From Burkholderia sp. 8Y (GTDB taxonomy: Bacteria; Pseudomonadota; Gammaproteobacteria; Burkholderiales; Burkholderiaceae): a DNA stretch of 64,000 nucleotides. Under the pieces are notes generated by a model, which worked only from the letters and a program-made list of their open reading frames with translations, searched no databases and was not told the origin of the DNA. Of this stretch, positions 1,755-49,391 are shown one piece after another. Each line of letters begins with the position of its first letter. Positions within the stretch are counted from its first letter, which is position 1. The stretch lies in assembly GCF_902506145.1 (NCBI RefSeq), contig NZ_LR733519.1, forward strand, positions 62,001-126,000, given 5' to 3'. A program made the position numbers and the translations under genes.

Positions 1755-2417
1755 CTAACGCGATGCGCCGCGCCCGTCGCCCTCGCCCGACCGATCCCAG
1801 CCGAACGCCTGCACGCTCGCGACCGGCCGGTCCACCGCGACGACGCCCCGCAATTCTCCGGGCATCGGCAGCACGAGGCCATGCCATGATGCTGCGCCGT
1901 CCTCGCCGCGCTCGGCTCGCGCGCGCGCAAGACGCGCCGCTTCCGCAATCGCCTCATGACCGCCCGGCGCCTCGACGCTCAGCCCGATCTCCACGTTCGC
2001 CGGCGCGACCGCGATCACGATCCAGATGCCGGAATACGACACATCGACGCTCACGCCGCGCTCGCCGCTCGCATCCCTCACGACGATGCGCTCGTTCGGC
2101 GCATCTTCCACGCGCACGTCCTGCGGGCGGCAAGCGAACATCTGCGAGGTAATGAGCCGCAGCGTCGCGCGTGCGACGCTAAAGCGCCGGCCGATCGACG
2201 AGTTCGGATAAAGCCGCGCCCGCTTGCGCTCCGCGACGCTCAGCCAGCTCCCGATGTTCGATGCCGACGCAAAGCGGAATTCGCTCGTGACGAGCCAGAG
2301 GCAGACCTCGCCCTCGGCAGGCGGGCATTCGACCGCGCGCGATCGGGACAGATCGTGAAAGCGCCACGGCACGTTGTCCGCGAACTCGAGCGGAAGCGAA
2401 ACGGAGCCGCTCTGCAT
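1755..2417 (-). CDS. 4'-phosphopantetheinyl transferase-like protein, catalytically degenerate
   Basis: A 220-residue protein resembling the Sfp-type 4'-phosphopantetheinyl transferase fold in its first and last parts: an Arg-rich helix with RARLYPNSSIGRRFSVARATLR, then SYSGIWIVIAVAP and VEIGLSVE in the places where active enzymes have NxSHS and GVDIE, and a short terminal strand resembling the family end. The invariant Asp is replaced (GLSVE) and no WxxKE motif follows; the central catalytic segment seems lost. It therefore probably cannot transfer phosphopantetheine, and may be a decaying gene or a pseudoenzyme. ATG 2417 is preceded by GGAG at 10 nt; a GTG at 2435 is the alternative. Divergent from the flippase gene, at the edge of the polysaccharide locus. 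Confidence 0.55.
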   Translation of the reverse strand: MQSGSVSLPLEFADNVPWRFHDLSRSRAVECPPAEGEVCLWLVTSEFRFASASNIGSWLSVAERKRARLYPNSSIGRRFSVARATLRLITSQMFACRPQDVRVEDAPNERIVVRDASGERGVSVDVSYSGIWIVIAVAPANVEIGLSVEAPGGHEAIAEAARLARARAERGEDGAASWHGLVLPMPGELRGVVAVDRPVASVQAFGWDRSGEGDGRGASR

Positions 2418-2911
2418 CACGCATGCGCTCCACACGAAACGGCCATTCCACGCGGCACGGCTTCTCCCATTAGTCGATCTCTTTCGATTTGCCCGGCGGG
2501 CAAAGGTCGATTTTCCGCAAAGAATTGTTAACAGATGCTTAGGAGATCCGAGACGTCCAGAATTCGTTCACGAACACCATGGCGATGGACGGTCGTTCGC
2601 TTCTCGCATCGGCGATGCGGTTGCGCATCGGTGTCAATCGGTCGTTTTCCGTCTGCATGGTTGTCACGCTCGCGCATTACGCTTTGCGCTTTTGCCATGT
2701 GCTTCGCGCGCGAACGCATTGCGCCGCTCATCTAATGTCTGACGGATAGGCGCACGAAGCGTGCATCTCATTACTTAAGACACCGCATTGACTCACACGC
2801 CCGCGACGCACGCCGGTATAGTCTCTATCGTCCGCGACGCCTCTTTAGCGCGTGGCTTTAAAAGACAACGCGTTAATCGTAAGAACGATGCTTGAAGCCA
2901 AGGGGATCTAG
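2418..2911. other. Divergent intergenic region, left border of the polysaccharide locus
   Basis: About 490 bases between the PPTase-like gene (leftward) and the flippase gene (rightward). It must carry promoters for both. A TATAGT hexamer lies at about 2817-2822 with TTGACT 23 bases upstream, which is too far for a good sigma-70 pair. A seven-codon open frame (ATG 2888 to TAG 2909-2911) ends directly against the GTG start at 2912. No larger gene is convincing. Confidence 0.5.
2901..2905 (+). promoter_or_regulatory. Ribosome binding site deciding the GTG start of the flippase gene
   Basis: AGGGG at 2901-2905 sits 6 bases before GTG 2912. An in-frame TAG at 2909-2911 excludes any upstream start, so the GTG is effectively forced. 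Confidence 0.7.
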
Positions 2912-4294
2912 GTGCTGACATTCGCGCTCGGGGTACTGAAAAGACGCATACGAAGCGTCCACACGGATCATCGGCGCATCGCGAAGGGCGCCGTCATCGT
3001 TTCGGTGTTCGTCTTTCTCGGCAAGGGCGCGGGCGCTTTCAAGGAAATGGCGGTGGCCTACCGCTATGGAATCGGCGGAACCGTGGACGCGTATCAGCTC
3101 GCGCTCACGCTCGTTTCGTGGCTTCCGCTCACGGTCATCGGCGAGTTGAGCATTCTTCTCGTGCCGCTTTTCGTCGCGATGCGGGACAAGAAAGAGGAAA
3201 TGGCGCAGTTTCTCGCGGAAATCGAAGGTGTCTGCATGCTGCTCGGCGTCGTGCTCACGTCGCTGCTCTTGCTGAGCTGGCCGCTTCTCGCGCATTTCAC
3301 CGCGTCGAATCTCTCCGAGAGCACGCGCACCATGTGCCTCTATCTGCTGATGGGCCTCGCGCCGGTCGGCGTCTTGAGCTTCACCGTCTGCATCACCGCT
3401 GCGCGGCTTCAGGCACGCGAGAAGCACATCAACACGCTGCTGGAATCCGTTCCGGCGCTCGTGCTGCTGTGCCTCGTCCTCGTCGTGCCGCGTCGCGATT
3501 CGCTCCTTCCGTTGATGCTCGGCACGTCGCTCGGCGTCGCCGTGCAGGCGCTGCTGCTGCGCCTCTGCGCGCGCAACGTCGATGGTCAGACGGCGCGCCC
3601 TCGCCTCTCGTTTCGCTCGCCGCACTGGCGCAAGACCTTGCATTCGGTGAGCGTGCTGATGGTGGGCGGCGTCATCGTCAGCATGATCACGCCCGTCGAT
3701 CAGTACTTCCTCGCTCAGGTCGGCGATGGCGCCATCGCCACCTACGGCTACGCGTATCGCGTGCTCACGCTATTGATCGGCATCGGCGCGCTTGCGATCA
3801 GCCGCGCCATTCTGCCGATCCTCTCCGAAATGCTGGCGGCGAAGGACGCCACGCGCGCCCGCAACACCGCGCTCAAGTGGTCGCTCGTGATGCTGGCGAT
3901 CGGCGCGCTCGGCGCGCCGATCGCGTATGCGCTCGCGCCGTGGATGGTCGAGCTGCTGTTTCAGCGCGGCGCCTTCACGGCGGACGACGCGCGCGCCGTG
4001 ACGCTCGTCTTCCGCACGGGCCTGATTCAGATACCGTTCGCATTCGCCGGTTTCGTCGTCATTCAGTTGTTCGTGAGCGAGGCGCGCTATCGGGCGCTCA
4101 CGTTCATCGCGGTCGTCAGTTTCGTAGTGAAGGCAGGCGGCAACGTGCTGCTGGCTCCGCTTTACGGCGCGCAAGGCGTGATGCTCGCGACCGGCCTCAT
4201 GACCGCCGCGTGCTTCGTCTGCTATCTCGTCTTCCTGAAGCAGCCGTCTGGGCAGCCGCGCGCCATTGCGCCGCACGGAGCGAGCGAAGAATGA
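2912..4294 (+). CDS. Polysaccharide flippase, MurJ/Wzx-like (MVF family)
   Basis: A 460-residue polytopic membrane protein with about 12-14 hydrophobic segments. The N-terminal region (AVIVSVFVFLGKGAGAFKE, then YRYGIGGTVDAYQLA) matches the start of MurJ/MviN-type lipid-linked oligosaccharide flippases, in which a glycine-rich first helix is followed by a D-A-F/Y-x-x-A motif. At the head of a polysaccharide locus the likely job is to flip the undecaprenyl-diphosphate repeat unit across the inner membrane (Wzx role). The length is a little short of MurJ (about 510). It starts with GTG and overlaps the next gene by 4 bases (ATGA at 4291-4294), so the two products are probably made in step. Confidence 0.85.
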   Translation: MLTFALGVLKRRIRSVHTDHRRIAKGAVIVSVFVFLGKGAGAFKEMAVAYRYGIGGTVDAYQLALTLVSWLPLTVIGELSILLVPLFVAMRDKKEEMAQFLAEIEGVCMLLGVVLTSLLLLSWPLLAHFTASNLSESTRTMCLYLLMGLAPVGVLSFTVCITAARLQAREKHINTLLESVPALVLLCLVLVVPRRDSLLPLMLGTSLGVAVQALLLRLCARNVDGQTARPRLSFRSPHWRKTLHSVSVLMVGGVIVSMITPVDQYFLAQVGDGAIATYGYAYRVLTLLIGIGALAISRAILPILSEMLAAKDATRARNTALKWSLVMLAIGALGAPIAYALAPWMVELLFQRGAFTADDARAVTLVFRTGLIQIPFAFAGFVVIQLFVSEARYRALTFIAVVSFVVKAGGNVLLAPLYGAQGVMLATGLMTAACFVCYLVFLKQPSGQPRAIAPHGASEE

Positions 4295-5697
4295 CCGCAC
4301 GTTCGACGCCCGGCAGCCTCGACGAGCGCCCCGCGCACAATGCGACAGGCGGCGCGCAGCGTTTTCCGATGACGCTCGAACTCTGGATGGCGCTGGAGCG
4401 TGCCGCGTATCGGGCACCGCGCCCGCAGGAACAATCGCCGATGGATCGCCTCGACGACCTGCAATGCGTCGTGGCGTACAACGGCGCGTGGGGCGTCGCG
4501 AATTTGTGGCGCACGCTGCTGCGGCGGCAAACGCCGCATCTTCAGGTGGTATGGCGCGGGCCGGATGGAAAGACGCGTCTGATCGCGGAGTCGCACGTCG
4601 CGCTTCCGAATCGCGAGTTCTTTTGCTCGTCGCTCGCGCTAGCGCTCGACCGGCAGCGGCAACTGTGCGAACGCGCGCGTCAACGCCTTCGTGACAGGCC
4701 GCCTCCGGACGCCTTCCCCGTGATCGATATCGCGGACTCCGAACGCCCGCCCTCGCCCACCGACGTGTTGCGCTTCGCGATCCGGCATCTGCTCGGCAAA
4801 ACGGCCAACAAGTTTCGCCGGGCGTTCGTTCGCAGCGACCATTGGGGCATGGCGTGGCGCAGCGACGAATCGTCCGATGCCAGTTGGTCCTTTTCCGACC
4901 GCGCGCCGTGGCGCCTGCTGATTCCATCGCCGGGCGACCGCTTCTACGCTGACCCGTTTCTCTGGCGCGACGCGGCGGGGCAGGTACATCTGTTCTTCGA
5001 AGACCTGCCCTATGCAACGAACAAGGGCGTGATTTCGCACGTCACGCTCGATCCCGTCTCCGGGTCATGCAACGCGCCGCCGCGCGTCGTGCTGGAGCGG
5101 CCGTACCATCTTTCGTACCCGTTTCTATTCGACTATGCGGGCGACGTCTTCATGATCCCCGAGACATCGGCCAACAGGACGATCGAGGTGTATCGCGCGG
5201 CGCCGTTTCCCGACGCCTGGGTGCATCACGCGACGCTGATGGAAAACCTGGTCGCCGCCGATACGACGCTCTTTCACGAGGCCGGAACGTGGTGGCTATT
5301 TACCACGATCGAGCAGGGCGGCGGGCCTAACTGGGACGAGCTGCATCTCTTTCATGCGCAGTCGCCATTCGGTCCGTGGGAGGCTCATCCGGGCAACCCG
5401 GTGGTGTCGGACTGCCGCGGCGCGCGAATGGCCGGCAACGTCTTCCGGGACGAGCACGGACGCCTCATCCGGCCCGCACAGGATTGCGAGCGCGAATACG
5501 GCGCGGCATTGCGTTTCTGGGAAATTACGGCGTTGAGTGCGTCGCACTATGCCGAAACGCAGGTGGCGGTGATGAACGCCCCGAGCAGCCGATCCGGCGT
5601 GCATACGTGGAACCGGACGGGAGACATCACGGTCGTGGACATCAAGCTGCGCGCATTGAAACGCGCGAAAGCGCAGACGGGATACTGCCGGTTTTGA
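4291..5697 (+). CDS. GINT1 N-terminal-like five-bladed beta-propeller protein
   Basis: A 468-residue protein. The first ~190 residues are Arg-rich and poorly conserved; from about residue 205 it resembles the N-terminal domain of plant glucosamine inositolphosphorylceramide transferase, related to GH43/GH68-type propellers: RFYADPFLW, HLFFEDLPY, YPFLFDYAGDVFMIPET, ADTTLFHEAGTWWLF, and GNVFRDEHGRLIRPAQD, each an acidic/aromatic blade element. Bacterial members occur in polysaccharide clusters, often near or fused to formyltransferase or glycosyltransferase modules; their reaction is unsettled. No signal peptide or membrane segment is visible, so it is probably cytoplasmic. Translationally coupled to the flippase. 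A role in modifying or transferring a sugar on the lipid-linked unit is inference. Confidence 0.7.
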   Translation: MTARSTPGSLDERPAHNATGGAQRFPMTLELWMALERAAYRAPRPQEQSPMDRLDDLQCVVAYNGAWGVANLWRTLLRRQTPHLQVVWRGPDGKTRLIAESHVALPNREFFCSSLALALDRQRQLCERARQRLRDRPPPDAFPVIDIADSERPPSPTDVLRFAIRHLLGKTANKFRRAFVRSDHWGMAWRSDESSDASWSFSDRAPWRLLIPSPGDRFYADPFLWRDAAGQVHLFFEDLPYATNKGVISHVTLDPVSGSCNAPPRVVLERPYHLSYPFLFDYAGDVFMIPETSANRTIEVYRAAPFPDAWVHHATLMENLVAADTTLFHEAGTWWLFTTIEQGGGPNWDELHLFHAQSPFGPWEAHPGNPVVSDCRGARMAGNVFRDEHGRLIRPAQDCEREYGAALRFWEITALSASHYAETQVAVMNAPSSRSGVHTWNRTGDITVVDIKLRALKRAKAQTGYCRF

Positions 5698-5720
5698 CGT
5701 TCCGAACGATGCCCGCTTGC

Positions 5721-5924
5721 CTAGCGGTCCGTGCCGTCGGAGCGTTCGAATTTCTGCCGCCGTGGGGCTTCCCGGCCTGCTGTCGCAGGGCGAGAGGTCT
5801 CAGGACGATCGTGTCGCCCGGCCCGTTTCGCGCCCGGCGAACGGACGATGTCGGAAACGGCGACCCCCGCTAAAACCACGACGGCCCCGATCGCAACGGT
5901 CCCAATCACGTTGAGCCAATCCAT
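5721..5924 (-). CDS. Small single-span membrane protein of unknown function
   Basis: A 67-residue open frame starting MDWLNVIGTVAIGAVVVLAG, a clear membrane segment at residues 4-23, followed by a basic, disordered tail. GGAG lies 6 bases before the ATG at 5924, which supports translation. It is convergent with the propeller gene, ending 23 bases from it. No family is recognised. High GC makes chance frames common here, so moderate confidence only. Confidence 0.5.
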   Translation of the reverse strand: MDWLNVIGTVAIGAVVVLAGVAVSDIVRSPGAKRAGRHDRPETSRPATAGREAPRRQKFERSDGTDR

Positions 5925-6292
5925 GTTTTCTCCGCGAGTTGCGCAGTCAGGATCCGGTTAAGGTCCGAACGCATGACGCACCGTCTTTGAAAGCACTACA
6001 GACGGTCGCACCAATATCTGCCATGGTATCACGCAGCCCTTCCTATGTGCGGAAGCACACGTTTCCGAAGAATCCATCGCGGCTACGCATAAGAACCGAC
6101 ACGATACCGTGCGATCCTGCACAGACGCGCGAGTTGATCGGGCGTGAATAATTGCCGCATTCAAGGCTGCTCTCGTCGCGCGACGAAGCGCAAGCACGAG
6201 TAATGCCGGCGGTTGGCATAGACCCCGCCGAGCATCTGAAATAACGGCTTCGGAGCGGAAAACTTTAGATGGCGCACGTGCGCCGGGCATGA
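5925..6292. other. Non-coding spacer
   Basis: Between the small membrane protein (leftward) and the terminator of the asnB unit. Short frames on both strands lack good ribosome binding sites and recognisable composition. It should hold the promoter of the 5721-5924 gene; nothing else is seen. Confidence 0.4.
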
Positions 6293-6324
6293 AAAAACGC
6301 GGCGCGCCCGAGCGAGCGCGCCGC
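6293..6324 (-). terminator. Rho-independent terminator of the GT4-asnB unit
   Basis: Perfect 9-bp inverted repeat, GCGGCGCGC at 6299-6307 and its complement at 6316-6324 with an 8-base loop. Read on the minus strand it is followed by a run of six T (6298-6293). It lies just after the asnB stop codon. Confidence 0.85.
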
Positions 6325-6347
6325 TTGTTTGCCAGCCCGCGAAATGT

Positions 6348-8336
6348 TCAGCTCGCGGCGTCGGTCAGGTCGAGTTCTTCAGCATCGACGGACTTGTTGG
6401 CATCGAGCCATGCCTCGAACATCAGCACGGTCCAAAGACGCGTGTGCCAGCTATGCGTCCCCGCCAGATGCTGGTCCCACATGGTCTTGACCATCTGCGC
6501 GTTGAGATAGCCCTCGCGTTTCAGACGATCGGCGCTCAGAAGATCGGACGCCCAGTCGCGCAGTTCGTTGCGCAGCCATGAGGCGATCGGCACGCTGAAT
6601 CCGTGCTTGGGACGCTCGAACATGGCGCGCGGGACGTAGCGATCGAGCAGGCTGCGAAGCACCACTTTCCCGACGCCCTTGTTGATTTTCATCGACAGCG
6701 GCAGACGCCAGGCGAACTCGACGATGCGCCGGTCCAGGAACGGCACGCGCGTCTCCAGGCTCACGTGCATCGCGGCACGGTCGACCTTCGCGAGGATATC
6801 GGTCGGCAGATAGCGGACGGCATCCAGATACATCATGCGCTCGGCATCGGTCAGGGAAGCCGGCAAGCCGCTTAAACCGGACGCCGTCACCGGCGCGCGG
6901 TAGCCGAGCACGATCCGGTCGGGTGCATCGAACGCGGATGCAAGCCGTTCATACGATGCCTCCAGTCCTTCGGCGCTCATGGCGTCCGCGAGTTTCAGCA
7001 GCTTGTCGCCGACCTGCGTGTGACGCATGCTCGGCGGCATCATGCCGACGATTGGCGCCGCCATGCGGTCGAGACGCTCCGCGCCGAGGCCGCGCACGCA
7101 ACGCGCGGTGAACGCGCGCGCGGGCAAAGGCACGCGGCTCAATTTGTCCCATAGCCCCTGCGCCGCGACATGGCGGTTATAGCCGCCGAAGAGTTCATCG
7201 CCGCCGTCGCCCGACAGGCTCACGGTCACATGACGCCGCGCCATCTGCGAAACGAGGAACGTGGGAATCTGCGAGGAGTCCGCGAACGGCTCGTCGTAGA
7301 TCTGCGGCAACTGCGGGACCACGGCGAGCGCATGGGCGGGCGTCACATACAGTTCGTGATGCTCCGTTCCCAGATGCTCCGCGATGCGCCGCGCATGCGT
7401 CGCTTCGTCGAAACCCGCCTGATCGAAGCCGATCGAGAAAGTCTGCACCGCGCGCGCGCTTTCGGCCTGCATGAGCGAGACGACCAGCGACGAATCGATG
7501 CCGCCCGATAGAAACGCGCCGAGCGGGACGTCCGCGACCATCTGGTCCCGCAGCACCTTGCGGAACACGCTATCCAGTTCGCCGACCGCATCGGCTTCGG
7601 TGAACGGTTCGGCCTTCGCTCGCGCGACGACGTCTTCCAGACGCCAGTACGGGCGCACGACGACATCGCCGTACGCGGGCCGGACTGTCGCGAGCGCGCC
7701 GGGAACCAGCTTGCTGATGCCTTCGTAGATCGTGTGCGGCGCCGGAACGCTGGAATAGCGCATGTACATGCCGAGCGCATCGCGGTCGATGCCGACATCG
7801 CGGAACGCCGGATGACGCCGCAGCGCCTTCAGCTCGGACCCGAAGACGAACGTGTCGCCGAGCCACGCGTAATAGAGCGGCTTCTCGCCGAGCGGATCGC
7901 GTCCGAGCGTGAGGACGCGCTCGTGCCGGTCCCACAACGCAAAGGCGAACATGCCGTACGCCTTGCCGAGCGTCTTCTCGATGCCCCACTGCGCGAAAGC
8001 CGCGAGCAGCACTTCGGTATCTGAATGCCCGCGCCAGTCGGGCGTTCCCGGCAGCGCATTCAGTTCCTTGCGCAGGTCTTCGGCGTTATAGACCTCGCCG
8101 TTGTAGACGATCATGTAGCGGCCACACGCCGATGCCATCGGCTGATGACCGAACTCGGATAGATCGACGATCGCAAGACGCCGATGTCCGAGCGCGACGC
8201 CCGCTTCGGCATCGATCCAGTATCCGGCGTCGTCGGGGCCGCGGCGCGCGAGGCTGTCGCACATGGCGCGCAGCCGTGGCATGGCGCTCGATCCGTCAAG
8301 CCGACCGCGAGTCAGGAAGCCCGTAATTCCGCACAT
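6348..8336 (-). CDS. asnB: Asparagine synthase-type amidotransferase (glutamine-hydrolysing)
   Basis: A 662-residue class-II glutamine amidotransferase plus synthetase protein. N-terminal Ntn domain starting Met-Cys-Gly-Ile: Cys2 becomes the nucleophile after Met removal, so ATG 8336 is the only functional start; AAGGAG seven bases upstream agrees, and the GTG at 8342 is too close to that site. The synthetase domain carries the PP-loop FLSGGIDSSLV near residue 270 and SLSGDGGDELFGGYNRH. In surface-polysaccharide loci such AsnB-like enzymes (WbpS, WbtH) amidate uronic acids. With tviB/tviC next door the likely substrate is a GalNAcA residue or its nucleotide form; this is inference, and an exact substrate cannot be read from sequence. 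The start overlaps the end of the upstream GT4 gene by 25 bases. Confidence 0.92.
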   Translation of the reverse strand: MCGITGFLTRGRLDGSSAMPRLRAMCDSLARRGPDDAGYWIDAEAGVALGHRRLAIVDLSEFGHQPMASACGRYMIVYNGEVYNAEDLRKELNALPGTPDWRGHSDTEVLLAAFAQWGIEKTLGKAYGMFAFALWDRHERVLTLGRDPLGEKPLYYAWLGDTFVFGSELKALRRHPAFRDVGIDRDALGMYMRYSSVPAPHTIYEGISKLVPGALATVRPAYGDVVVRPYWRLEDVVARAKAEPFTEADAVGELDSVFRKVLRDQMVADVPLGAFLSGGIDSSLVVSLMQAESARAVQTFSIGFDQAGFDEATHARRIAEHLGTEHHELYVTPAHALAVVPQLPQIYDEPFADSSQIPTFLVSQMARRHVTVSLSGDGGDELFGGYNRHVAAQGLWDKLSRVPLPARAFTARCVRGLGAERLDRMAAPIVGMMPPSMRHTQVGDKLLKLADAMSAEGLEASYERLASAFDAPDRIVLGYRAPVTASGLSGLPASLTDAERMMYLDAVRYLPTDILAKVDRAAMHVSLETRVPFLDRRIVEFAWRLPLSMKINKGVGKVVLRSLLDRYVPRAMFERPKHGFSVPIASWLRNELRDWASDLLSADRLKREGYLNAQMVKTMWDQHLAGTHSWHTRLWTVLMFEAWLDANKSVDAEELDLTDAAS

Positions 8337-9505
8337 TCCCACGCTCCTTCTTTGACCGCTGCATAAACGCGTTCATATTTCTGCCACGTCGATTCGATGG
8401 AGAACACCGACACGATGCGCTCGCGCGCAAGCTCGCCCATGTTTCTTCGCTCGTCGAGCGGCAAGGACAGCACCGAAAGAAGCCCGGCGGCGAGCGCCTG
8501 CGGATTTCGCGCGGGCACGAGGCGGCCCGCATCGCCGATCAGCACCGCCGTATCGCCGACATCGGTGGCCACGCACGGCACGCCGCAGGCCATCGCTTCG
8601 CCGATCACGGTCGGAAAGCCCTCGCTTCTCGATGACAAACAGAAGACGTCGAAGCCCGGCACCAGCGCATCGACATCGTCGCGCGGGCCGAGCAGATGAC
8701 ACGCGTCGGCTACGCCCGCATCGTGCAGCGTCTGCTGCAAAGCGCGATTCTCGCTCACCAGTTCGTGACCGATCATGACAAAGCGGCACGCCGGCATCTC
8801 CCGATGCACGCGTGCGATTGCCGCGATGAAATTGTCGTAGTCCTTCACCGCGTGATAGCGGCCCACGATTCCGACGACCGGCGCGTCTTCACTTACGCCG
8901 AGCAACCCTCTGAGATTGCTTCGCGCGTCGGGCCGCGGCCTGAACGCTTCGACATCGAAACCATTGTGAATGACGTGCATGCGCGACGCGTCATAGCCGC
9001 CTTTCGCGTGATTGGCCCGCGCGGCTTCCGCGCAGCAGATGATGAGATCGGGAATGCGCGACGAACTCGCCGCGCAACACCGCGCGACCACGCTCAGCTT
9101 CGGCTCCGACGCGAAGACGGGATACTCGCTTTGATGGATGGCCCAGAACACGCCGAAGCCCGCGCTCCCGGCGCTTCTCGCGGCCAGCGTGCGTTTCGCG
9201 AGACGCGCCGCGAAGCCGCCGATGAGATCCGCGTGATACATCCATGTCTGCACGACATCCGGGGCGTAATCGACGATCCAGCTCGCGAGGCGGCGCACGA
9301 GCAGCGGTTGCGGCACGCCGTTGCTCATGCCGAGCGCGCGCACTTCGATGCCGAGCGCCTGCAGCCGGGCGCCCATGATGCCGACCGAAGACAGCGACAC
9401 GACGAGATGCTGCGCACGCGTTGCGTGAGACATCTGCGTCAGCCGGTACAACAGAGTTTCCGCCCCTCCGACGCCAAGACCTGAAATGATGTGCAGTATC
9501 CGCAT
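8312..9505 (-). CDS. Glycosyltransferase, family 4
   Basis: 397 residues with the GT-B layout: N-terminal MRILHIISGLGVGGAETLLYRL, the acceptor-side glycine loop, and a C-terminal nucleotide-sugar half with VVGIVGRYHAVKDYDNFIAA and the retaining-GT E-x7-E motif in SEGFPTVIGEAMACGVP. ATG 9505 was chosen because homology starts there; the frame stays open further upstream. First gene of a leftward unit with asnB, whose start lies inside this gene's 3' end. Likely adds one sugar to the lipid-linked repeat unit on the cytoplasmic face; donor unknown. Confidence 0.9.
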   Translation of the reverse strand: MRILHIISGLGVGGAETLLYRLTQMSHATRAQHLVVSLSSVGIMGARLQALGIEVRALGMSNGVPQPLLVRRLASWIVDYAPDVVQTWMYHADLIGGFAARLAKRTLAARSAGSAGFGVFWAIHQSEYPVFASEPKLSVVARCCAASSSRIPDLIICCAEAARANHAKGGYDASRMHVIHNGFDVEAFRPRPDARSNLRGLLGVSEDAPVVGIVGRYHAVKDYDNFIAAIARVHREMPACRFVMIGHELVSENRALQQTLHDAGVADACHLLGPRDDVDALVPGFDVFCLSSRSEGFPTVIGEAMACGVPCVATDVGDTAVLIGDAGRLVPARNPQALAAGLLSVLSLPLDERRNMGELARERIVSVFSIESTWQKYERVYAAVKEGAWECAELRAS

Positions 9506-11320: not shown

Positions 11321-11356
11321 GCGGCACGCCCTGCCCGTCACACTGGAGCCGACGAT

Positions 11357-12457: not shown

Positions 12458-12484
12458 GAACCCGCTGTGCCCGAAGGAGCCCGC

Positions 12485-13690: not shown

Positions 13691-13703
13691 TAGCGCCTTA
13701 ATG

Positions 13704-13743: not shown

Positions 13744-13747
13744 ATCA

Positions 13748-20308: not shown

Positions 20309-20388
20309 CGAGCGACGCCTGAGCGCAACAGTCGGTGCGACGCCAATCTGTCCGCCCGGTCGAGGTCCGTGCTGCGGACCGCGCGCGC

Positions 20389-21528: not shown

Positions 21529-21605
21529 CGCACTTTCTCGTTGATTTATAGTGCGGCGCGCGCAGGCGCCGCATTTTCGGTGATCCGTGATGCGTCGCGC
21601 GCCGC

Positions 21606-22790: not shown

Positions 22791-22836
22791 GGACGCGTCG
22801 CAGGCAGTCGAAGCCCCAGGGGTTCACGGGCGCCCG

Positions 22837-25077
22837 TCATGTATTCATTTCCTGGTAGTACGCCTTGTAGGCGCCGCCGCCGTATCGCCGCGAATAGGCA
22901 TAGCCGCCCGCGCCGTCCGGCACCGCGTTGAGCACGAGACCGTTCACCTTGCAGCCCGCCTGATTCAGCCGCTGAATGGCCGTTGTCACTTCCGTCGCGC
23001 GCGTCACACCGTAGCGTGCAAGCAGAAGGATGGTCGCGGCCGCCGGCGCAATGATGCCGACATCCGATACCGCCAGCACGGCGGCGGCATCCACGACGAC
23101 GATGTCGTAGTCATCGACCACTTCTTCGAGCGCGCGCTGGAAATTGCCGCGCAGCAGAAGCTCGGATGCGTTGTCCGGATACCGTCCGACGCCCAGGAAA
23201 TCCAGATTCGGCGTGACTTCGCGGCGAATGGCATCGCGAATAGGCAAGCTGCCCTGCATCACTTCGGTCAGGCCGGGCCCCCACGGCACACCGAGAATGC
23301 GATGGATATGGCCGCGCCGAAGGTCCGCGTCGACGAGCAGCACGCGCTTGCCTCCCGCCGCGAGCACCGCCGCGAAGTTCGTCGATGTGAACGACTTGCC
23401 GCTGCGTGGCATTGGACCGCTCAGCATGACCACGTTATTGCGCGCGCCGATCATCGCGACCTGAACCGCGGTGCGCAGCACGCGCAGGCTTTCGACAGCC
23501 GGATCCTGCGGACATTTCACGGCGAGCAGGCGCTCGGGCACCGTGGCATGGCGGTTCTTGGCGAGACGCCCTTCGTCGTCGCTCATCGGTATGGCGGCGT
23601 ACAGCTGCAAGCCGGTGCCGCTGAGCTCGCCCGGGTCGACGACGCCCTTCTTCACGAAGTCCCAGCCGAACGCGAGACCCAGTCCCGCGAAAATCGCGGC
23701 GACCGCCGATACCCCGACGATCAGCATCCGGTTCGGCTTGCTCGGCATCTCGGGAACGTCGGCGGTATCCACGATCCGCACCGAACTGATCTTGCCAGCG
23801 CGCACGAGCTGCAACTGCTCCATGTTCGAGCGCATGGTCGAATAGACATCGGTCGCCACGCGCACCTCGCGCATCAGGCGAACCGTGCTCTGCTCATCGG
23901 TCGGGAGCGCCCGCACGCGCTCGGTGAGCGAGTCGCGGTAACGGCTCGTCGCTGCAATCTGCTTGTCGAGCTGCACGAGATCGGGATGCCCCGGCGCGAA
24001 ACGCTGCGCGATTTCCTGGCGGCGCTGCATCAACTGATAGTAAGACGTCTCCGCCGCCGACGACTGCTGCAGAAGCACGCGCGCCTGTTCGCTGATATCG
24101 ACCGATGCGTGCCGGTTGCGGAATTCGTTGTAGCGTTGCTCGGCCTGATCGACCTGCTGCTTCAACGCGGGAAGCTGCGAGTTCAGGAAGTCGATGGATG
24201 ACTGAGCGCGCACCGCCTTGCGCTCCGCGTTCTGCCGTTCGTACGACTGCCCGATGGCGTTGATCGTCGCGGCGACCGCGACCGGGTCCGCGCCCGAGAG
24301 CGTCGCGGCGATCACATCGGACTTGTTGCCCTGCTCGTCCACCTGCAGCGCGCGCCTGAGCGCGTCGATGGCGGCCGGACGCGACGAGCGCCGCACGTTG
24401 AATTCGATGCCCGGCTGCGCGTTCATGGACGCGACGCGCAGCTTGATGACGCCCTTGCCCGTGTCGAACGCCGCGAGTTCGCCGACCTTGCCCGTCACGG
24501 GCGTTTCCAGACCGGGGCCGGAGAGTTCGTACATGCCGCCGGCGAGCGCCTTGACGCGGTACGCATGGCCGATGTCGGCCTTGGGCACGTCGAAGGAGCG
24601 CACATAGATGGACTCGTTGCCCCACGCGAACCCGCCGAGGCCGAAGATGCCGGGCGTCGACAGACCCTGCGCATAGCGAGCGACCACCTTACCGATGATC
24701 GGGAAGTAAACAGGCTCCGCGCTCACCGCGAGGTTCAGCGAATCGACAGCTTCGCCGACCACAAGCTTCGAGCTGAGAATCTGGATCTCGCCGTCCGCGT
24801 TCGACCGTGCGCCGACGATAGACGACACGTCGCCGACATATTCGTTGGACGACGGGCGCGCGCTGCCCTCGCCGGCGTCTTCCAGCTGGACGACGATTTT
24901 TGCCTGATAGACCGGCGGAGCGATGACTGCATAAAGGAAGCCCGTGCCGAAAATCACGGCGAAAGCGGCGATGATCAGCCAGCGGTGCGAATAGATGCTG
25001 TCGATGACGCTCGCGAAATCGAAACGTAGAGGGCTCCCGTTCGCCTCGGCATTACGTTGGTCGATGTACTCGGCCAT
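22837..25077 (-). CDS. Polysaccharide co-polymerase / tyrosine autokinase (Wzc/BceF-like)
   Basis: 746 residues, normal for Wzc. N-terminal Wzz domain with a membrane helix at about 30-50 (WLIIAAFAVIFGTGFLYAVIAP), a long periplasmic coiled coil (about 260-420), a Pro-rich element then a second helix (MLIVGVSAVAAIFAGLGLAFG). The cytoplasmic kinase has Walker A SGPMPRSGKSF, Walker A' VLLVDADLRRG and Walker B-like YDIVVVDAAAVLAVSD, where most family members have DTPP; the tail is Tyr-rich (YAYSRRYGGGAYKAYY), the autophosphorylation cluster. It sets chain length and export of group-1-type polymers. No Wza or Wzb partner lies in the window. Leads a unit with two GT4 genes and the YdcF-like gene. 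Confidence 0.93.
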   Translation of the reverse strand: MAEYIDQRNAEANGSPLRFDFASVIDSIYSHRWLIIAAFAVIFGTGFLYAVIAPPVYQAKIVVQLEDAGEGSARPSSNEYVGDVSSIVGARSNADGEIQILSSKLVVGEAVDSLNLAVSAEPVYFPIIGKVVARYAQGLSTPGIFGLGGFAWGNESIYVRSFDVPKADIGHAYRVKALAGGMYELSGPGLETPVTGKVGELAAFDTGKGVIKLRVASMNAQPGIEFNVRRSSRPAAIDALRRALQVDEQGNKSDVIAATLSGADPVAVAATINAIGQSYERQNAERKAVRAQSSIDFLNSQLPALKQQVDQAEQRYNEFRNRHASVDISEQARVLLQQSSAAETSYYQLMQRRQEIAQRFAPGHPDLVQLDKQIAATSRYRDSLTERVRALPTDEQSTVRLMREVRVATDVYSTMRSNMEQLQLVRAGKISSVRIVDTADVPEMPSKPNRMLIVGVSAVAAIFAGLGLAFGWDFVKKGVVDPGELSGTGLQLYAAIPMSDDEGRLAKNRHATVPERLLAVKCPQDPAVESLRVLRTAVQVAMIGARNNVVMLSGPMPRSGKSFTSTNFAAVLAAGGKRVLLVDADLRRGHIHRILGVPWGPGLTEVMQGSLPIRDAIRREVTPNLDFLGVGRYPDNASELLLRGNFQRALEEVVDDYDIVVVDAAAVLAVSDVGIIAPAAATILLLARYGVTRATEVTTAIQRLNQAGCKVNGLVLNAVPDGAGGYAYSRRYGGGAYKAYYQEMNT

Positions 25078-25605
25078 GTCTTTCCCTCAGAGCTGACGCT
25101 TCTTTGTGGACAGAAAGTCGCGATGATTTCCGGTTCGCGCACGTGGACCACAGCCCCTTGCGCTTTGTTATGACGAGTCTGCTAGGCGACCTAATTATCT
25201 GATTAATCCGGTTTGCCTGCGGACACGACCCGGTCATATTGCGGATATTTCATTTACCGCATAACGCGCTATTGCTTGCTCGGTTCCGTATCGTATACCG
25301 CAGCAGTTGTGAACGGCAACACGGTTTATCTATTTAGTTGGTTCATCTGAACATACAAGAGCGTGTTCAGTAGGGATTTCCTGTATGAATTCCCGAAAAA
25401 AACTCTGGAATGCCTATGCGATGTTGTTTACGATACGTCTCGGATGCATGACTCCACTTTGATGCAATTCGCCAATTTCTGAACGACTATTTGTTTATCG
25501 GTTATTCGTGCGTACCGCAGCATCGACCCCCTGTTCGGATAAGAAGGACACCGAGTAATCTTTCGCAGTGCACCATGCCGCCTTGCTGCGCACCCGGAGA
25601 AGCAA
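25078..25605. other. Divergent promoter region between the autokinase unit and the initiating transferase
   Basis: 528 bases, relatively A/T-rich, without a convincing gene. It must carry promoters for the two key genes of the locus (chain-length kinase and initiation). GGAG at 25596-25599 is the ribosome site of the rightward gene. No operator is recognised. Confidence 0.45.
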
Positions 25606-26754
25606 ATGGTTAACTTGACAGTTGGCTTCGCAAGCGCGTTTTTGATGACCTGGCTGGTTGTCAAGTATGCGGGAACCTGCGCACGCTTCTCGCTCGACTT
25701 CGACCTGCGCGCAGTTCAGCGGAACCATTACAACGCCGTGCCCAGGGTCGGCGGCCTCGCCATCTTCTGCGGCACCGCCATCACGTTCGCGACGTCCACC
25801 GTGTCCCATACCTCGCCGACGTATGAAGCGTTCCTGTTATTGAGCTGCGCCACGCCTGCCTTCATCGGCGGCCTTGCCGAAGATCTGACGAAGCGCGTGA
25901 GCCCGCGCGTGCGTCTCGTGTGCGCGCTCGTGGCGGCGCTTGCTTGCTGCTTCGTCCTGCACGCCGTGGTGGAGCGCGTCGACGTGCCCGCAGTCGATCT
26001 CGTGCTGGGCATCGCGCCTGTCGGCATCGTGTTCACGATGATCGCCGTGGCGGGCGTCACGAACGCGATGAACATCGTGGACGGCCTGAACGGCCTCGCG
26101 TCGGTCGTCGGCATTCTCATCTTCGCGTCCATCGGCTACGTGGCCGTCTCCGTCAACGACTGGCTGGTCGCGAGCGTCGCGTTCGCGATGATCGGCGCCA
26201 TCGGCGGCTTCGTCGTCTGGAACTACCCGTCGGCGCTCGTTTTCATGGGTGATGGCGGCGCTTACTTCATTGGCTTCATGATGGCGGAACTCGTCGTGCT
26301 GCTGATCGCGCGTCACCCCAACGTCAGCGCCTTCTACGCGATCGTCGCCATGTATCCGGCGTTCGAGACGATCTTCTCGATCTACCGCCGCCGCTACGTG
26401 CGCGGCCGCGCCGTCGATGCGCCCGACGCGCTGCATCTGCATACGCTCATCTACAAGCGCATCGCGCGCAAGGGCATCGCGTTCAGCGACCGGCAACAGT
26501 GCACGCGCCGCAACTCGGTCACTTCGGTTTATCTGTGGGTGCTGAGCCTCATCCCGATCGTTCCCGCGACGTTCTTCTGGAACTCGCCGTATGTGCTCGG
26601 CATCGCGGCGCTGGCCTTCGCGAGCGTGTATCTGTGGATCTACTCCGCCGTGGTGAGATTCAAGACGCCGTCCTGGATGATGCTTCCGGTATGGATGCTC
26701 CGTCACGCTTCGCGCGCCGAACGCCGGACGGCAGCGCCTGATCGCCTGCGCTGA
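25606..26754 (+). CDS. Undecaprenyl-phosphate sugar-1-phosphate transferase (MraY/WecA/TagO family)
   Basis: 382 residues with about 10-11 membrane helices. Family motifs in order: RVGGLA at 47-52, acidic pair ED at 92-93 (usually DD), NIVDGLNGL at 156-164, FMGDGGAYFIG from 213, and the cytoplasmic His motif HLH at 277-279. Such enzymes move HexNAc-1-phosphate (GlcNAc, GalNAc or a diamino derivative) from UDP to undecaprenyl phosphate, the first step of a repeat unit. It is the only such enzyme in the locus, so it is the likely initiator. The ED for DD change is conservative and occurs in homologues. Confidence 0.88.
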   Translation: MVNLTVGFASAFLMTWLVVKYAGTCARFSLDFDLRAVQRNHYNAVPRVGGLAIFCGTAITFATSTVSHTSPTYEAFLLLSCATPAFIGGLAEDLTKRVSPRVRLVCALVAALACCFVLHAVVERVDVPAVDLVLGIAPVGIVFTMIAVAGVTNAMNIVDGLNGLASVVGILIFASIGYVAVSVNDWLVASVAFAMIGAIGGFVVWNYPSALVFMGDGGAYFIGFMMAELVVLLIARHPNVSAFYAIVAMYPAFETIFSIYRRRYVRGRAVDAPDALHLHTLIYKRIARKGIAFSDRQQCTRRNSVTSVYLWVLSLIPIVPATFFWNSPYVLGIAALAFASVYLWIYSAVVRFKTPSWMMLPVWMLRHASRAERRTAAPDRLR

Positions 26755-27152
26755 TACTGCCGATACGCCCGTTCGCAGGCGCCCGACGGGCTTCTACACG
26801 GTCACTTGATCAGCGTTTTTGTTGCACTGAAGCAAGGCCGCCAAGTTAGCGGACAAGATGTCGTGATGCCTCTACTGACTTTCAGTTTCCCGCCGAATCG
26901 TTTTACGCCGAAGCCGGCGGTTGCGCATAAGCCGACCGCCGCTTTGGCATTTAGTGCATTGATTAAACGTCGCGCTTAGTCTAACTCGCGGAATTTATAT
27001 GTGCGTCACCGCACGGATTTAATCACTTTTTCTAAATATATTGCGCGGGGAATTCGCGCGGAATAAAAACTGATTATGTTTTCCCTGCTTCTTTATTTTG
27101 ACGCGATCATCCGGAGCGGGTTCCTGATAACGGATAACGATGCAAGAGACGC
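26755..27152. other. Spacer between initiating transferase and polymerase genes
   Basis: About 400 bases with a hairpin at 26908-26947 (separate entry) and a strongly A/T-rich stretch at about 26985-27100 that is a plausible promoter zone for the EpsG-like gene. No gene seen. Confidence 0.45.
26908..26947 (+). terminator. Possible hairpin terminator after the initiating transferase
   Basis: CCGAAGCCGGCGGT pairs with ACCGCCGCTTTGG (13 pairs, one bulged C, one G-U) around a 13-base loop. No T-run follows, so it may be an mRNA hairpin rather than an intrinsic terminator. Confidence 0.4.
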
Positions 27153-28238
27153 ATGAAGAATCCAGCCGTGTATAGAAACTCCGGCCTGTTGGATGTCAAT
27201 CAGGTGCGGCACGAAGCCCGTCCCTATTTCGCGACGCCTGCCGGATGGGCCTTTCTGCTGCTCGCGTTTTACATCATCTGGTTTCTTTCGACGTCCGAAC
27301 GGTCGATCTATAGCATCGCGGATCAAGACGCGTACCTTGCATATTTCAGATACACCGACTGGGAGTGGCTCAAGGCCTACTTCGCCCACACAGGTTTCGG
27401 GCTCAGCGTCGTCCCGCACCTCATCACGGACGAAATCGGCTGGCGGCTCTGGATCATCCTCGTGAATTCGCTGGGCTTCACGCCGGAGTCGGGCATCCGG
27501 CTCACCGTCGCGCTGTCCAACGTGCTGGTCTTCTGTGCGCTCGCGCGGCTGCGCCGTCCGCTGCTCGGGCTCGTGATCTGGACGGTGGTCCCGGCTGCCC
27601 TTTTCACCATCGGCCTGTTTCAGTTGCGGCAAGGCTTCGGCTTCGGCGTGGCGATGCTGCTCGCCATCGGACTGCGCCGGCCGGTGCTCGGCATGTGGAT
27701 CGCAAGCACCATCCACACGACATTCGTCATTCCCGCCATGCTGATTACCGTCGCATCGAGAAGCGGCAAGGACAACCGGATCGCCATTCCCGTCGTCGTC
27801 GTGTTCGGCTCGGTGCTGGCCGCGAGCGCGCAGACGCTGTTCGATACCTTCGGCGGCCGTCGTCTGGACGACTACGCGAACTACACGGCGGAGTTCTCGG
27901 TCAACCTGCTCGTGCTGCTCATGTCGTACGGGCTTGCATCGGTGCTGGTGCTCGCGGCGCTTCCGACCCTGCGCGCCGTGCGCCTGCGCACGCCCTTGCG
28001 TCATCTCGCGCTGATGCATCTCGGCCTGCTCGCCTACCTCGTGTGCGCGTTCGTCTTCTTTCCGTTCGGCAAGGACCGCGTGTTCTACTACATCTCGCTG
28101 CTGCTGCCGTTTCTGATGCAAGAGATTCGTGTCAAGGACGGCATCACGCTATGGATGACGACAGTGCTCTACTTCATGATGGCGGCGGATGTCTATCTCG
28201 CGTCACAGAAGGGCGTGTACACGTATTTCTTCAGATAG
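27153..28238 (+). CDS. EpsG-like polysaccharide polymerase (Wzy role)
   Basis: 361 residues, polytopic, about 9-10 hydrophobic segments. Features of EpsG/Wzy-type proteins: a polar loop with DQDAYLAYFRYTDWEWLKAY after the first helix, LRQGFGFGVAMLLAIGL (Arg-Gln then small-residue helix), a central IHTTFVIPAML and a late FGKDRVFYYISLLLP. This pattern (aspartate/tyrosine loop, R-Q, H-x-T) is typical of EpsG family proteins, which polymerise lipid-linked units at the periplasmic face. No other Wzy candidate is as good in the locus, though the large membrane protein at 30878-32494 could compete. Confidence 0.75.
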   Translation: MKNPAVYRNSGLLDVNQVRHEARPYFATPAGWAFLLLAFYIIWFLSTSERSIYSIADQDAYLAYFRYTDWEWLKAYFAHTGFGLSVVPHLITDEIGWRLWIILVNSLGFTPESGIRLTVALSNVLVFCALARLRRPLLGLVIWTVVPAALFTIGLFQLRQGFGFGVAMLLAIGLRRPVLGMWIASTIHTTFVIPAMLITVASRSGKDNRIAIPVVVVFGSVLAASAQTLFDTFGGRRLDDYANYTAEFSVNLLVLLMSYGLASVLVLAALPTLRAVRLRTPLRHLALMHLGLLAYLVCAFVFFPFGKDRVFYYISLLLPFLMQEIRVKDGITLWMTTVLYFMMAADVYLASQKGVYTYFFR

Positions 28239-28341
28239 CGCGGGATGATGGTCGGCGCTTGCGACACGACACGACACGATGTCTTCGACAATCGCCACTT
28301 GTCGCGCAGTCGTTCGTCGCACCGACAGTTCTTCTCGATAG

Positions 28342-29945: not shown

Positions 29946-30881
29946 ATGACGATGTTGAATATCATCGTGCCGTGCTACAACGAAGAGGAAGTTTTGACGG
30001 AAACGAGCACGCGTCTGCTCGCGCTGCTGAATCGACTGATCGGCGAAGGCGTGGTCACGGACGAAAGCAGGATCACGTTCGTCGACGACGGCTCGCGCGA
30101 TCGTACATGGTCCATCATCGAGAGTCTGCACCTCGCCAATGCGCGATGCCGCGGCATCAAGCTCTCGCGCAATCGCGGGCATCAGAACGCGTTGCTCGCG
30201 GGCTTGCTGCTTGCGCAAGGCGACGTGCTCGTGAGCCTGGACGCCGACCTTCAAGACGACATCGAAGCCATTCCGCGCATGCTCGCCGAGCACCGCAATG
30301 GCGCAGAGATCGTCTTCGGCGTGCGGCACAAGCGCGCGTGCGACACGTTCTTCAAACGCTTCACCGCGCAAAACTACTACAAGGTGCTGAAAGGGTTGGG
30401 CGTGGACGTCCTGCCCGGTCACGCGGACTTCCGGTTGATGAGCCGCAAGACGCTCGAGGCGCTCAAAGAGTTTCAGGAAGTCAATCTGTTTCTTCGGGGC
30501 ATCATTCCGCTGCTCGGCTTTCGCACGGCCGTCGTCGAATACGAGCGCGCCGCGCGATTCGCAGGTGTGAGCAAATATCCGCTCGGCAAGATGCTCGCGT
30601 TCGCCTTCGACGGCATCACGTCCTTCTCGGCAGTGCCCTTGCAATGGAGCACGCGCATCGGCGCGCTGCTCGCCGCCGGTTCGCTGTGCTTCGGCGCGTG
30701 GGCTGTGTATGCGCGCCTTTTCACCGATCTCGCCGTGCCCGGCTGGGCGTCCACGGTCGTGCCCATGTACTTTCTCGGCGGCATCCAGCTGCTTTTCCTC
30801 GGCGTGATCGGCGGCTATATCGCCAAGACGTATGCCGAGACAAAGCGTCGTCCACGCTTCATCATCGAGCGAACGCTATGA
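29946..30881 (+). CDS. gtrB: Polyprenyl-phosphate glycosyltransferase, GtrB/DPM-like (GT2)
   Basis: 311 residues. GT-A domain with IIVPCYNEEE, VDDGSRDRTW and LDADLQDD, then RNRGHQNALLAG and DFRLMSRK, all hallmarks of GtrB/dolichol-phosphate-mannose synthase-like enzymes. Two C-terminal membrane helices (GALLAAGSLCFGAWAVYARL and MYFLGGIQLLFLGVIGGYIA). It charges undecaprenyl phosphate with a single sugar that is flipped and used on the periplasmic side. ATG 29946 has AGGGGG at 7 bases. It overlaps the next gene by ATGA (30878-30881). Confidence 0.88.
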   Translation: MTMLNIIVPCYNEEEVLTETSTRLLALLNRLIGEGVVTDESRITFVDDGSRDRTWSIIESLHLANARCRGIKLSRNRGHQNALLAGLLLAQGDVLVSLDADLQDDIEAIPRMLAEHRNGAEIVFGVRHKRACDTFFKRFTAQNYYKVLKGLGVDVLPGHADFRLMSRKTLEALKEFQEVNLFLRGIIPLLGFRTAVVEYERAARFAGVSKYPLGKMLAFAFDGITSFSAVPLQWSTRIGALLAAGSLCFGAWAVYARLFTDLAVPGWASTVVPMYFLGGIQLLFLGVIGGYIAKTYAETKRRPRFIIERTL

Positions 30882-32494
30882 ACATGCCGATCGAAGGTGC
30901 AGATGCCGCCGCATCGTCCGCCGGGCCGTCGCTCTCGCGCAGCGGCTCGTTCATCGACCGTTTGCCGCGCGCGCTTTTCATCGTGGCAGTGCTTTATGGG
31001 GCCGTGCTCTTCTGGATCGCGCCTCGGCCGCCGCTTGCCGATCTGCCGCAACATGCCGGGCAAGTCATGCTCCTGCACGATCTTCTTGAGCATGCGTCGC
31101 CGTGGACGGACCAGCTGCGGATCAATCTGTTCACGCCCTATCTGATCGGCTACGGTCTTGCGCTGCCGCTCACGTACGTGATGGCCGTTTCAGCGGCGAT
31201 CAAGCTCATTCTCACGCTCGCCTACTTCGGATTCGTGGCGTCGTGCATCGCATTCCGGAAGGATCTGAACGGCGATCCGAGGCTCGACATCCTGTTTGTG
31301 CCGGGTTTCTTCGGCTTCGCCTTCGGCTGGGGCTTCTACACGTTTCTTGTCGCGGCGCCCGTGGGCATGCTGTTTTTGCGGCTCGTTCATCGCTATGCGG
31401 CGGCTCCTTCGTTGAGCAAGGGCGTCGTCGTGTCCGTGGCGGGAACGGCGCTTTTCTTCTGCCACGGCCTCGTCTTTCTGTTCGCCTGTGCGACCGGTGT
31501 CTGCTTCGTGCTCGTGAAACAGCGGCGTGTCGGGTCGATGCTGTGCGCGCTCGCGCCGTTCGTGCCGCTCGGCCTGCTATGCATCGCCCATGCGATGTGG
31601 AGCCATGCGAGCGATCCGGTTCTCAACCATGGCATCCAGAACGTGACCGCCTTCGAATGGGGCTGGACCGACAGGGTGTCGAAGCGTCTCATCTCGCTGC
31701 CCGTCTTCGTGTGGAGCCTGTCGAAGGACGGCGCGCGCTATCTGCCGGTCGTCGCGCTGATGGCCGCCGCGCCGTGGCTCTGGCGCGACAGGATCAATCG
31801 CGACCGCGCCGCCATCGTGCCGATGATCGTCGTCGTGTTCATCTGGATGCTCGTGCCCAGCACGGCGGCGGGGACGGCGTTCTTGTATCAACGGTTCGGC
31901 GTGTTCCTGCTGCCCGCGTATGCGCTGATGTTCGTCGCCGCAGAGCCAGCCCATTGGGATGCGCGGCGGGCCATGTCTGCCTCCGCCCTCACGCGCGTGC
32001 GTGACGTGGGCCTTCAACTGGCGATGATCGCGGGCTGCCTCGTCTTCTTCACCGACCAGTCCATCCGTCTGCATCGTTTCGCGGCGGAGAACGCCGGGCT
32101 GGAACAATTGCTGTCGCAGACCGAACCGGGCCAGCGCGCGCTCAACCTCGTCTTCGATCCTGAGAGCGCCGCCTACGGGAGTCCGGCTGCGTACATGCAT
32201 CAGGCGTTGTGGTATCAGGCGGAAGAGCGCGGATTCGTGAATCCGAACTTCGCGATCTTCCTCCCTCAGATCGTGCGCTTTAGACCCGAGCACGTTCCCC
32301 CCGACACTGAGCACGTCGTTCAAGAGCCTGACACGTTCCAATGGAAGACGGACGGCGGCCGCGCATATCGGTACTTCTTCGTCCACAAGGCCGAGCCGTT
32401 GCGGGCGGACTTTTTCACCAACGACGAGTGCGATGTCGCATTGGTGACGCACTCCGGCGCATGGTGGCTCTACGAGCGGCGCAACTGTCGATGA
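30878..32494 (+). CDS. Large polytopic membrane protein, probable GT-C glycosyltransferase
   Basis: 538 residues: about 10 membrane segments to residue ~400, then a soluble C-terminal domain of ~140 residues. After the first helix comes a loop with PPLADLPQHAGQVMLLHDL; an acidic residue in the first periplasmic loop is where GT-C enzymes keep a catalytic Asp/Glu. It is translationally coupled to gtrB, which makes the lipid-phosphate sugar such an enzyme would use, so it is the likely third partner of a Gtr-type system. No family name is certain from sequence; a polymerase or ligase role cannot be excluded. Confidence 0.65.
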   Translation: MNMPIEGADAAASSAGPSLSRSGSFIDRLPRALFIVAVLYGAVLFWIAPRPPLADLPQHAGQVMLLHDLLEHASPWTDQLRINLFTPYLIGYGLALPLTYVMAVSAAIKLILTLAYFGFVASCIAFRKDLNGDPRLDILFVPGFFGFAFGWGFYTFLVAAPVGMLFLRLVHRYAAAPSLSKGVVVSVAGTALFFCHGLVFLFACATGVCFVLVKQRRVGSMLCALAPFVPLGLLCIAHAMWSHASDPVLNHGIQNVTAFEWGWTDRVSKRLISLPVFVWSLSKDGARYLPVVALMAAAPWLWRDRINRDRAAIVPMIVVVFIWMLVPSTAAGTAFLYQRFGVFLLPAYALMFVAAEPAHWDARRAMSASALTRVRDVGLQLAMIAGCLVFFTDQSIRLHRFAAENAGLEQLLSQTEPGQRALNLVFDPESAAYGSPAAYMHQALWYQAEERGFVNPNFAIFLPQIVRFRPEHVPPDTEHVVQEPDTFQWKTDGGRAYRYFFVHKAEPLRADFFTNDECDVALVTHSGAWWLYERRNCR

Positions 32495-49388: not shown

Positions 49389-49391
49389 ATG

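Follow-up and report, generated by a model that had tools for sequence, protein, structure and literature searches.

What surface polymer would be built by a cluster of sugar-nucleotide, glycosyltransferase and export genes in Burkholderia sp. 8Y, and is such a cluster new? The window analysed here is a stretch of 64,000 nucleotides (contig NZ_LR733519.1, positions 62,001 to 126,000). Judged by its gene families, the cassette at 2.6–28.2 kb of this window is a Wzx/Wzy-type polysaccharide locus. Its roughly 17 genes, from a soil- and insect-associated bacterium, probably form a set for a coat polymer with an acidic amino sugar, part of it present as the uncharged amide. Gene content, homology, synteny and co-occurrence make it likely that the product is a Wzx/Wzy-dependent capsule or exopolysaccharide containing N-acetylgalactosaminuronic acid (GalNAcA), partly amidated. 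A first-pass annotation of the same DNA had proposed a surface-polysaccharide locus with GalNAcA or its amide; the enzymes found and the similarity of AsnB to WbqG (48%) bear this out as far as sequence goes. For Caballeronia, whose members include bug-gut symbionts, this yields a structure prediction for a surface polymer, namely GalNAcA plus its amide.

Gene content and sugar chemistry

Gene families were assigned by Pfam and NCBIfam profile scans of the window proteins (Table 1). Nearly every gene named in the first-pass annotation was confirmed between 2.9 and 28.2 kb: TviB and TviC, the AsnB-type amidotransferase, the GT4 glycosyltransferases, the PF00953 initiator, EpsG and Wzc, together with the GINT1-like propeller (by its GINT1_N domain) and the FemAB-like acyltransferase (by its Acetyltransf_6 match). 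For the two proposed β-helix proteins the outcome is mixed: the Pfam β-helix matches of both lie under the cut-off, and the fold of the second (18340..19446) was confirmed by a structure model. The MurJ-family flippase, missing from the earlier gene list, completes the pathway. In total the cassette encodes five glycosyltransferases (gt4a–d and the GT2 enzyme).

TviB exceeds the cut-off of its NCBIfam model and is 65.6% identical to TviB of E. coli O121; its closest named matches are from Caballeronia. The TviC protein scores 482 bits with the NCBIfam TviC model, under the cut-off of 760. Its best solved relative is WbpP (PDB entry 1sb8), and it shares 65.7% identity with the O121 epimerase. 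The reactions of TviB and TviC/WbpP together yield uridine diphosphate (UDP)-GalNAcA in an established pathway. Over 656 columns AsnB shares 47.9% identity with the protein annotated as AsnB in the O121 cluster, which we take to be WbqG; with AsnB of E. coli K-12 it shares 30.5% over 410 columns. The end of gt4a overlaps the start of asnB, and its product shares 36.6% identity with the GT4 whose gene overlaps wbqG in O121. The accessible text of PMC7468200 places WbpS and WbqG in the eps_aminotran_1 family (TIGR03108) and reports that amidation of GalNAcA was shown to need WbqG. All three parts of the GalNAcA-amide module known from WbpO/WbpP/WbpS and O121 (dehydrogenase, 4-epimerase and WbpS/WbqG-like amidotransferase) are found in the cassette. 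The locus enzymes thus predict GalNAcA and its 6-amide, and the amide prediction is well supported by sequence.

Table 1. Predicted genes of the polysaccharide cassette (window coordinates).
Feature	Position	Strand	Evidence
Whole cassette	2622..28245	.	bounded by Lep1P3 collinearity
MurJ-family flippase (Wzx role)	2912..4294	+	Pfam MurJ 121.5 bits; 88% to Lep1P3
GINT1_N-domain protein, helical N-terminal part then propeller	4291..5697	+	export signal not seen by eye
AsnB-type glutamine amidotransferase, WbpS/WbqG-like	6348..8342 (frame)	-	MCG start = third codon; MCG and SGGIDSS visible
GT4 glycosyltransferase gt4a, likely GalNAcA(N) transferase	8312..9508	-	Pfam scan on longer frame 8312-9649
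TviB, UDP-GlcNAc 6-dehydrogenase	10043..11320	+	NF011729 666 bits, cut-off 592
TviC/WbpP, UDP-GlcNAc(A) 4-epimerase	11357..12457	+	WbpP PDB 1sb8 522 bits
GT4 glycosyltransferase gt4b	12467..13690	+	Pfam
FemAB/GNAT-like acyltransferase (Acetyltransf_6)	13748..14893	-	PF13480 86 bits
β-helix protein, probably exported	14948..15931	-	PF12708 16.9 bits, under cut-off 27; signal peptide by eye
GT2 glycosyltransferase	16153..17457	+	PF00535 125.6 bits
β-helix protein, lipoprotein by eye; candidate polymer epimerase/lyase/hydrolase	18340..19446	+	
DUF218/YdcF-type protein	19643..20308	-	PF02698 88 bits, longer frame 19643-20629 scanned
GT4 glycosyltransferase gt4c	20389..21528	-	PF00534 133 bits, longer frame 20389-21720 scanned
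GT4 glycosyltransferase gt4d	21606..22790	-	PF00534 120.6 bits
Wzc polysaccharide copolymerase/tyrosine autokinase	22837..25077	-	TIGR01005 433 bits, cut-off 411.7; Pfam
WecA/MraY-family initiating phosphoglycosyltransferase	25606..26754	+	PF00953 114 bits
EpsG-family polymerase (Wzy role)	27153..28238	+	PF14897 39.9 bits, cut-off 30.1

Assembly and export

The cassette holds a PF00953 initiator, a MurJ-family flippase, an EpsG polymerase and a Wzc of the polysaccharide copolymerase class PCP-2, and hence a full Wzx/Wzy-type set apart from Wza. The MurJ-family protein stands in the place of a classic Wzx (118 bits with TIGR01695, under the cut-off of 235.55). Profile scans found no outer-membrane exporter (Wza) among the 17 genes, which counts against the main reading, although such a gene is a usual rather than a strictly defining part of these loci; none is listed for the corresponding stretches of Caballeronia sp. 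Lep1P3 or NK8, whose gene tables are incomplete. Elsewhere in its own genome the strain carries two Poly_export genes, each among other polysaccharide genes: one on contig C2 beside Wzc and Bac_transf genes, the other about 155 kb away on contig C5, of which the window is a part, close to a 61% identical TviC and a gene with a weak match to ABC2_membrane.

The polymer could instead be a lipid A-linked O-antigen. WecA-type initiation and the lack of Wza in the locus would fit such a product, as would the fact that the close chemical relatives, in E. coli O121 and E. coli E166, are O-antigen clusters. Against this, a kinase-domain Wzc (PCP-2) is typical of capsule and exopolysaccharide systems, and a Wzz without kinase domain was not found among the 17 genes by the Pfam and NCBIfam scans. 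We therefore consider an O-antigen improbable, though it is the best of the alternatives, and favor a capsule or exopolysaccharide.

An exopolysaccharide locus of the XrtA/PEP-CTERM type was rejected, as the TIGR03108 score lies under the cut-off and no exosortase was found. A search of the strain's own genome for exosortase PF09721 gave no match at E ≤ 0.001 (control positive in 1 of 14).

Co-occurrence of AsnB in Caballeronia

We searched 58 Caballeronia genomes for AsnB (E ≤ 0.001) and TviC (E ≤ 1e-80). AsnB was present in 22 genomes, with no match in 36, and TviC in 34. TviC accompanied AsnB in 21 of the 22 AsnB genomes versus 13 of the 36 without AsnB (Fisher 5e-6; the Fisher tests on these genomes ignore kinship). 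In 18 genomes the two genes lie 3.0–9.4 kb apart on one contig; in three (G011, G015, G023) they are on different contigs, and the only AsnB genome without TviC is G046.

These counts bear on a second alternative, namely that AsnB works as an ordinary asparagine synthetase, or amidates a substrate that is not a sugar, and that the polymer contains plain GalNAcA. AsnB does score above cut-off with the general asparagine synthase model, no other AsnB was found in the strain's own genome, and Burkholderia relatives of 55–56% identity sit away from TviB and TviC. Conservation across the genus, as a housekeeping enzyme would show, was nevertheless not observed: AsnB is missing from 36 of the 58 genomes, so housekeeping in the genus does not depend on it. 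Where present, it lies less than 10 kb from TviC on one contig in 18 of 22 genomes, and it is closer to WbqG (48%) than to K-12 AsnB (30%). On balance this alternative is unlikely, slightly more so than an O-antigen, and a sugar amidotransferase is the preferred assignment.

Some of the fetched loci lack parts of the set. The genes murJ, gint, wzc, wecA and GT4s are retained in G016, G017 and G053, of which the last was read on an 18-kb contig; identity of the gt4a-like gene reaches no more than 30% in these three, and in G017 and G053 a TviC is located on a different contig. TviB and TviC occur in C. grimmiae and Sq4a together with a 50–51% identical gt4a; AsnB is absent from the compared stretches. 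Across this small set of loci gt4a goes with TviB/TviC, with AsnB as an optional extra.

AsnB relatives and tree

A peptide-pattern search of named genomes retrieved AsnB relatives, and the best 80 of the 86 found were analyzed. A gt4a-like gene is directly upstream of AsnB in 10 of the 80 loci; directly downstream, a same-strand gene scoring at least 100 bits as gt4b-like occurs in 11. In an Alcaligenaceae metagenome-assembled genome (L118) the order is wecA-tviB-tviC-murJ-gt4c-asnB-gt4d-gt4a-gt4b; no EpsG or Wzc match was found in that stretch. A DNA search with AsnB gave 69–72% nucleotide identity in four Burkholderia records. The same search of E. coli gave no match, so O121 was reached through tviB.

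The AsnB tree was built from the 80 relative loci and 8 others; 8 rows were dropped for length (L083, L105, L138, L144, L145, L150, L159, L068) and the window was added, giving 81 rows. It was computed by a quick method with K-12 AsnB, on a very long branch, as outgroup; 28 of the 78 inner branches are open, and the protein in row G044 is incomplete. The resolved branches do not settle the exact neighbours of the window's AsnB group. The six Caballeronia AsnBs form two groups of three, kept apart by starred branches, which is consistent with AsnB having entered this kind of locus more than once.

Several observations weigh against an amidated GalNAcA polymer. TIGR03108 is the top-scoring NCBIfam model for AsnB (543 bits) and yet falls under its cut-off of 817, and the general model TIGR01536 is exceeded (464.8 versus 267.1). 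AsnB is weak or broken in 3 of the 22 Caballeronia genomes: G011 (38%, two pieces), G046 (pieces) and G015 (inner TAG). The fetched loci of G016, G017 and G053 hold neither TviB/TviC nor AsnB. The relatives are not confined to loci of this type, as a TviB-class gene lies near 13 and a TviC-class gene near 4 of the 80 (at 250 bits or more), counts limited by the short DNA around many of them. Three Burkholderia records carry a 55–56% identical AsnB within about 34 kb free of TviB and TviC; in B. stagnalis, the sole one scanned with Pfam, it has type III secretion genes and a roughly 4000-codon open frame as neighbours. In the tree, WbqG and the window share only one 46-row group (support 83), inside which the forks are largely open. 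WbqG belongs to a 17-row subgroup (95) with the NK8-type AsnBs, nearer to those than to the window's group, and for this reason our confidence was eased slightly. The nearest non-Caballeronia row to the window is Pannonibacter, with no TviB or TviC in its 10-kb flanks.

The three Burkholderia records are from B. stagnalis, B. multivorans and B. cenocepacia (L200:15985-31359; also L199 and L201). A locus of the same kind in Burkholderia was rejected, these three, fetched from the four records matched by DNA, holding no other gene of the cassette.

Extent of the cassette and comparison with Lep1P3

The borders follow from the locus of Caballeronia sp. Lep1P3. Window positions 2622-28245 align with its positions 12490-40570 in collinear pieces of 83–86% nucleotide identity, and all 17 genes are found there with order and strands unchanged, at 80–94% protein identity. 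The first-pass annotation had drawn the locus at 1755..32494 and included a Gtr-type block. By this test the cassette excludes both the 1755-2435 gene and the 28342-32494 block, which were rejected as members. The proposed methyl groups lose their basis as well: the methyltransferase sits in the outside block, and the in-locus methyltransferase of Lep1P3 gave no tblastn match in the window.

The flanks differ. To the left, Lep1P3 has cytochrome c and pyrroloquinoline quinone (PQQ) dehydrogenase genes; to the right, EpsG is followed by the type VI secretion gene tssC, and by the Gtr block in the window. The left-hand neighbours of Lep1P3 recur in the window at 41.7–52.5 kb, right of the locus, so the cassette or its surroundings must have moved.

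Lep1P3 holds a second MurJ and a methyltransferase that have no counterpart here; the second MurJ matches solely the single MurJ of the window (51%, tblastn). That the window locus is a degraded, non-working copy after loss of these two genes, which are indeed both missing, is very unlikely, since all 17 frames are open over their full length, one MurJ is kept, and gene content varies in other Caballeronia loci too.

GINT1-like propeller protein

The protein at 4291-5697 has a GH130-type (GH130/GT108-like) propeller fold, and D221, E237, E291 and D324 are invariant in 64 sequences. It occurs in 28 of the 58 Caballeronia genomes (one a fragment): in 22 of the 22 AsnB genomes versus 6 of the 36 without AsnB (Fisher 7e-11). 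AsnB is absent from all 30 genomes that lack it, and six genomes have it without AsnB. GINT1-type proteins number at least 872 relatives; no functional study of a bacterial one was found in the literature among the matches listed. A more novel reading, conceivable though doubtful, is that it represents a new class of propeller glycosyltransferase or phosphorylase, acting in the cytoplasm to make part of the repeat unit. If so, a propeller enzyme combined with a Wzc-bearing locus free of Wza would represent a distinct assembly variant. The propeller protein and the absent Wza are the least explained parts of the locus.

Proposed mechanism

Based on the gene content we propose the following route. 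The WecA-like enzyme would place the first sugar-phosphate onto undecaprenyl phosphate. TviB would convert UDP-GlcNAc to UDP-GlcNAcA and TviC the latter to UDP-GalNAcA, from which gt4a, and perhaps gt4b too, would add GalNAcA. Using glutamine and ATP, AsnB would amidate a GalNAcA carboxylate, the reaction reported for WbpS/WbqG. The repeat would be finished by gt4c, gt4d and the GT2 enzyme and acylated by the FemAB-like protein. The MurJ-like protein could flip it, EpsG polymerize it and Wzc set the chain length. Export would proceed through a Wza encoded elsewhere in the genome, and the β-helix proteins may trim or epimerize the polymer outside the cytoplasm.

Neighbouring and related genes

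The block at 28342-32494 comprises GtrA and a GT2 (GtrB-like), both families assigned by Pfam, a methyltransferase, and a last gene without Pfam match. This last gene appears to encode a multi-membrane protein, the block being separate from the cassette; a 67% relative of it lies about 6.6 kb from epsG in Caballeronia genome G017, so that a loose link of the block to the locus may exist. On the other side, the 226-residue frame at 1755-2435 by eye resembles a phosphopantetheinyl transferase of the Sfp type; Pfam gave it no match at E ≤ 1. A two-partner secretion (TPS) pair, a TPS-domain protein and a ShlB-type transporter on opposite strands, occupies 34591-38719. The genes at 41723-52508 (alcohol dehydrogenase, RecQ, PQQ dehydrogenase) are immediately left of the cassette in Lep1P3 and right of it here, which marks a rearrangement. 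The Lep1P3 counterpart of the β-helix protein at 14948..15931 is annotated as GH55, and a paralogue of the β-helix lipoprotein, 88% identical over residues 48-368, was found on another contig of the strain's own genome (C2:10181-11140).

Comparison with known systems

The E. coli O121 O-antigen cluster resembles the cassette in TviB, a TviC/WbpP-class epimerase, a WbqG-like amidotransferase and an overlapping GT4 gene. It differs in having its own annotated flippase and polymerase, and no Wzc, EpsG, GINT1 propeller or β-helix protein is annotated in the compared stretch, which runs from tviB on and stops before the cluster end. In P. aeruginosa O6, wbpO-wbpP-wbpS is akin to the TviB, TviC/WbpP and WbpS-like set of the window. 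The O-antigen cluster of E. coli E166 (L059) has annotated EpsG, TviB, a short-chain dehydrogenase/reductase (60% to TviC) and MurJ, a parallel to the MurJ/EpsG pairing seen here. Cepacian (bce) loci are alike in the Wzc/BceF kinase; unlike those loci, the 17 genes include no nucleotide-sugar genes for mannose, rhamnose or glucuronic acid by Pfam and NCBIfam.

According to the available part of PMC7397029, five bug symbionts lack a capsule cluster that appears in its B. pseudomallei column; we take that cluster to be a different locus from the window cassette. In Rubrivivax gelatinosus, the psc1 locus as described in the accessible portion of PMC3684757 shares with the window a FemAB-related protein, the order GT group 1 - wbpS - GT group 1, and wzy. 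It differs in its PEP-CTERM association, several wbpS copies and heptose genes; a wbpS mutation there altered colony morphology in an EmbRS null background.

Among Caballeronia, NK8, C. grimmiae and Sq4a share TviB, TviC, Wzc, WecA, EpsG, MurJ, GT4 and β-helix genes with the window (tblastn) in another gene order, and the NK8 AsnB belongs to another AsnB group. The locus on plasmid p1 of Lep1P3 is the nearest. According to the part of PMC11893276 consulted, Lep1P3 is a symbiont with which hosts fared significantly worse than with any of eight other strains. Host relevance of the polymer is conceivable, a link that consists of one strain and is no proof.

The first-pass annotation had called the combination possibly undescribed and suggested a synteny search. 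No study of this locus was found in the literature among the matches listed, in a search that reached few subscription journals. A near-identical, collinear locus is nevertheless already in public sequence (Lep1P3), with diverged versions in other Caballeronia. With amidation by WbqG and the Rubrivivax GT-wbpS-GT order both published, the module is already known in kind. The locus thus appears to add a new example to a known kind, with close relatives that carry the same or similar sets and a chemistry known from other bacteria.

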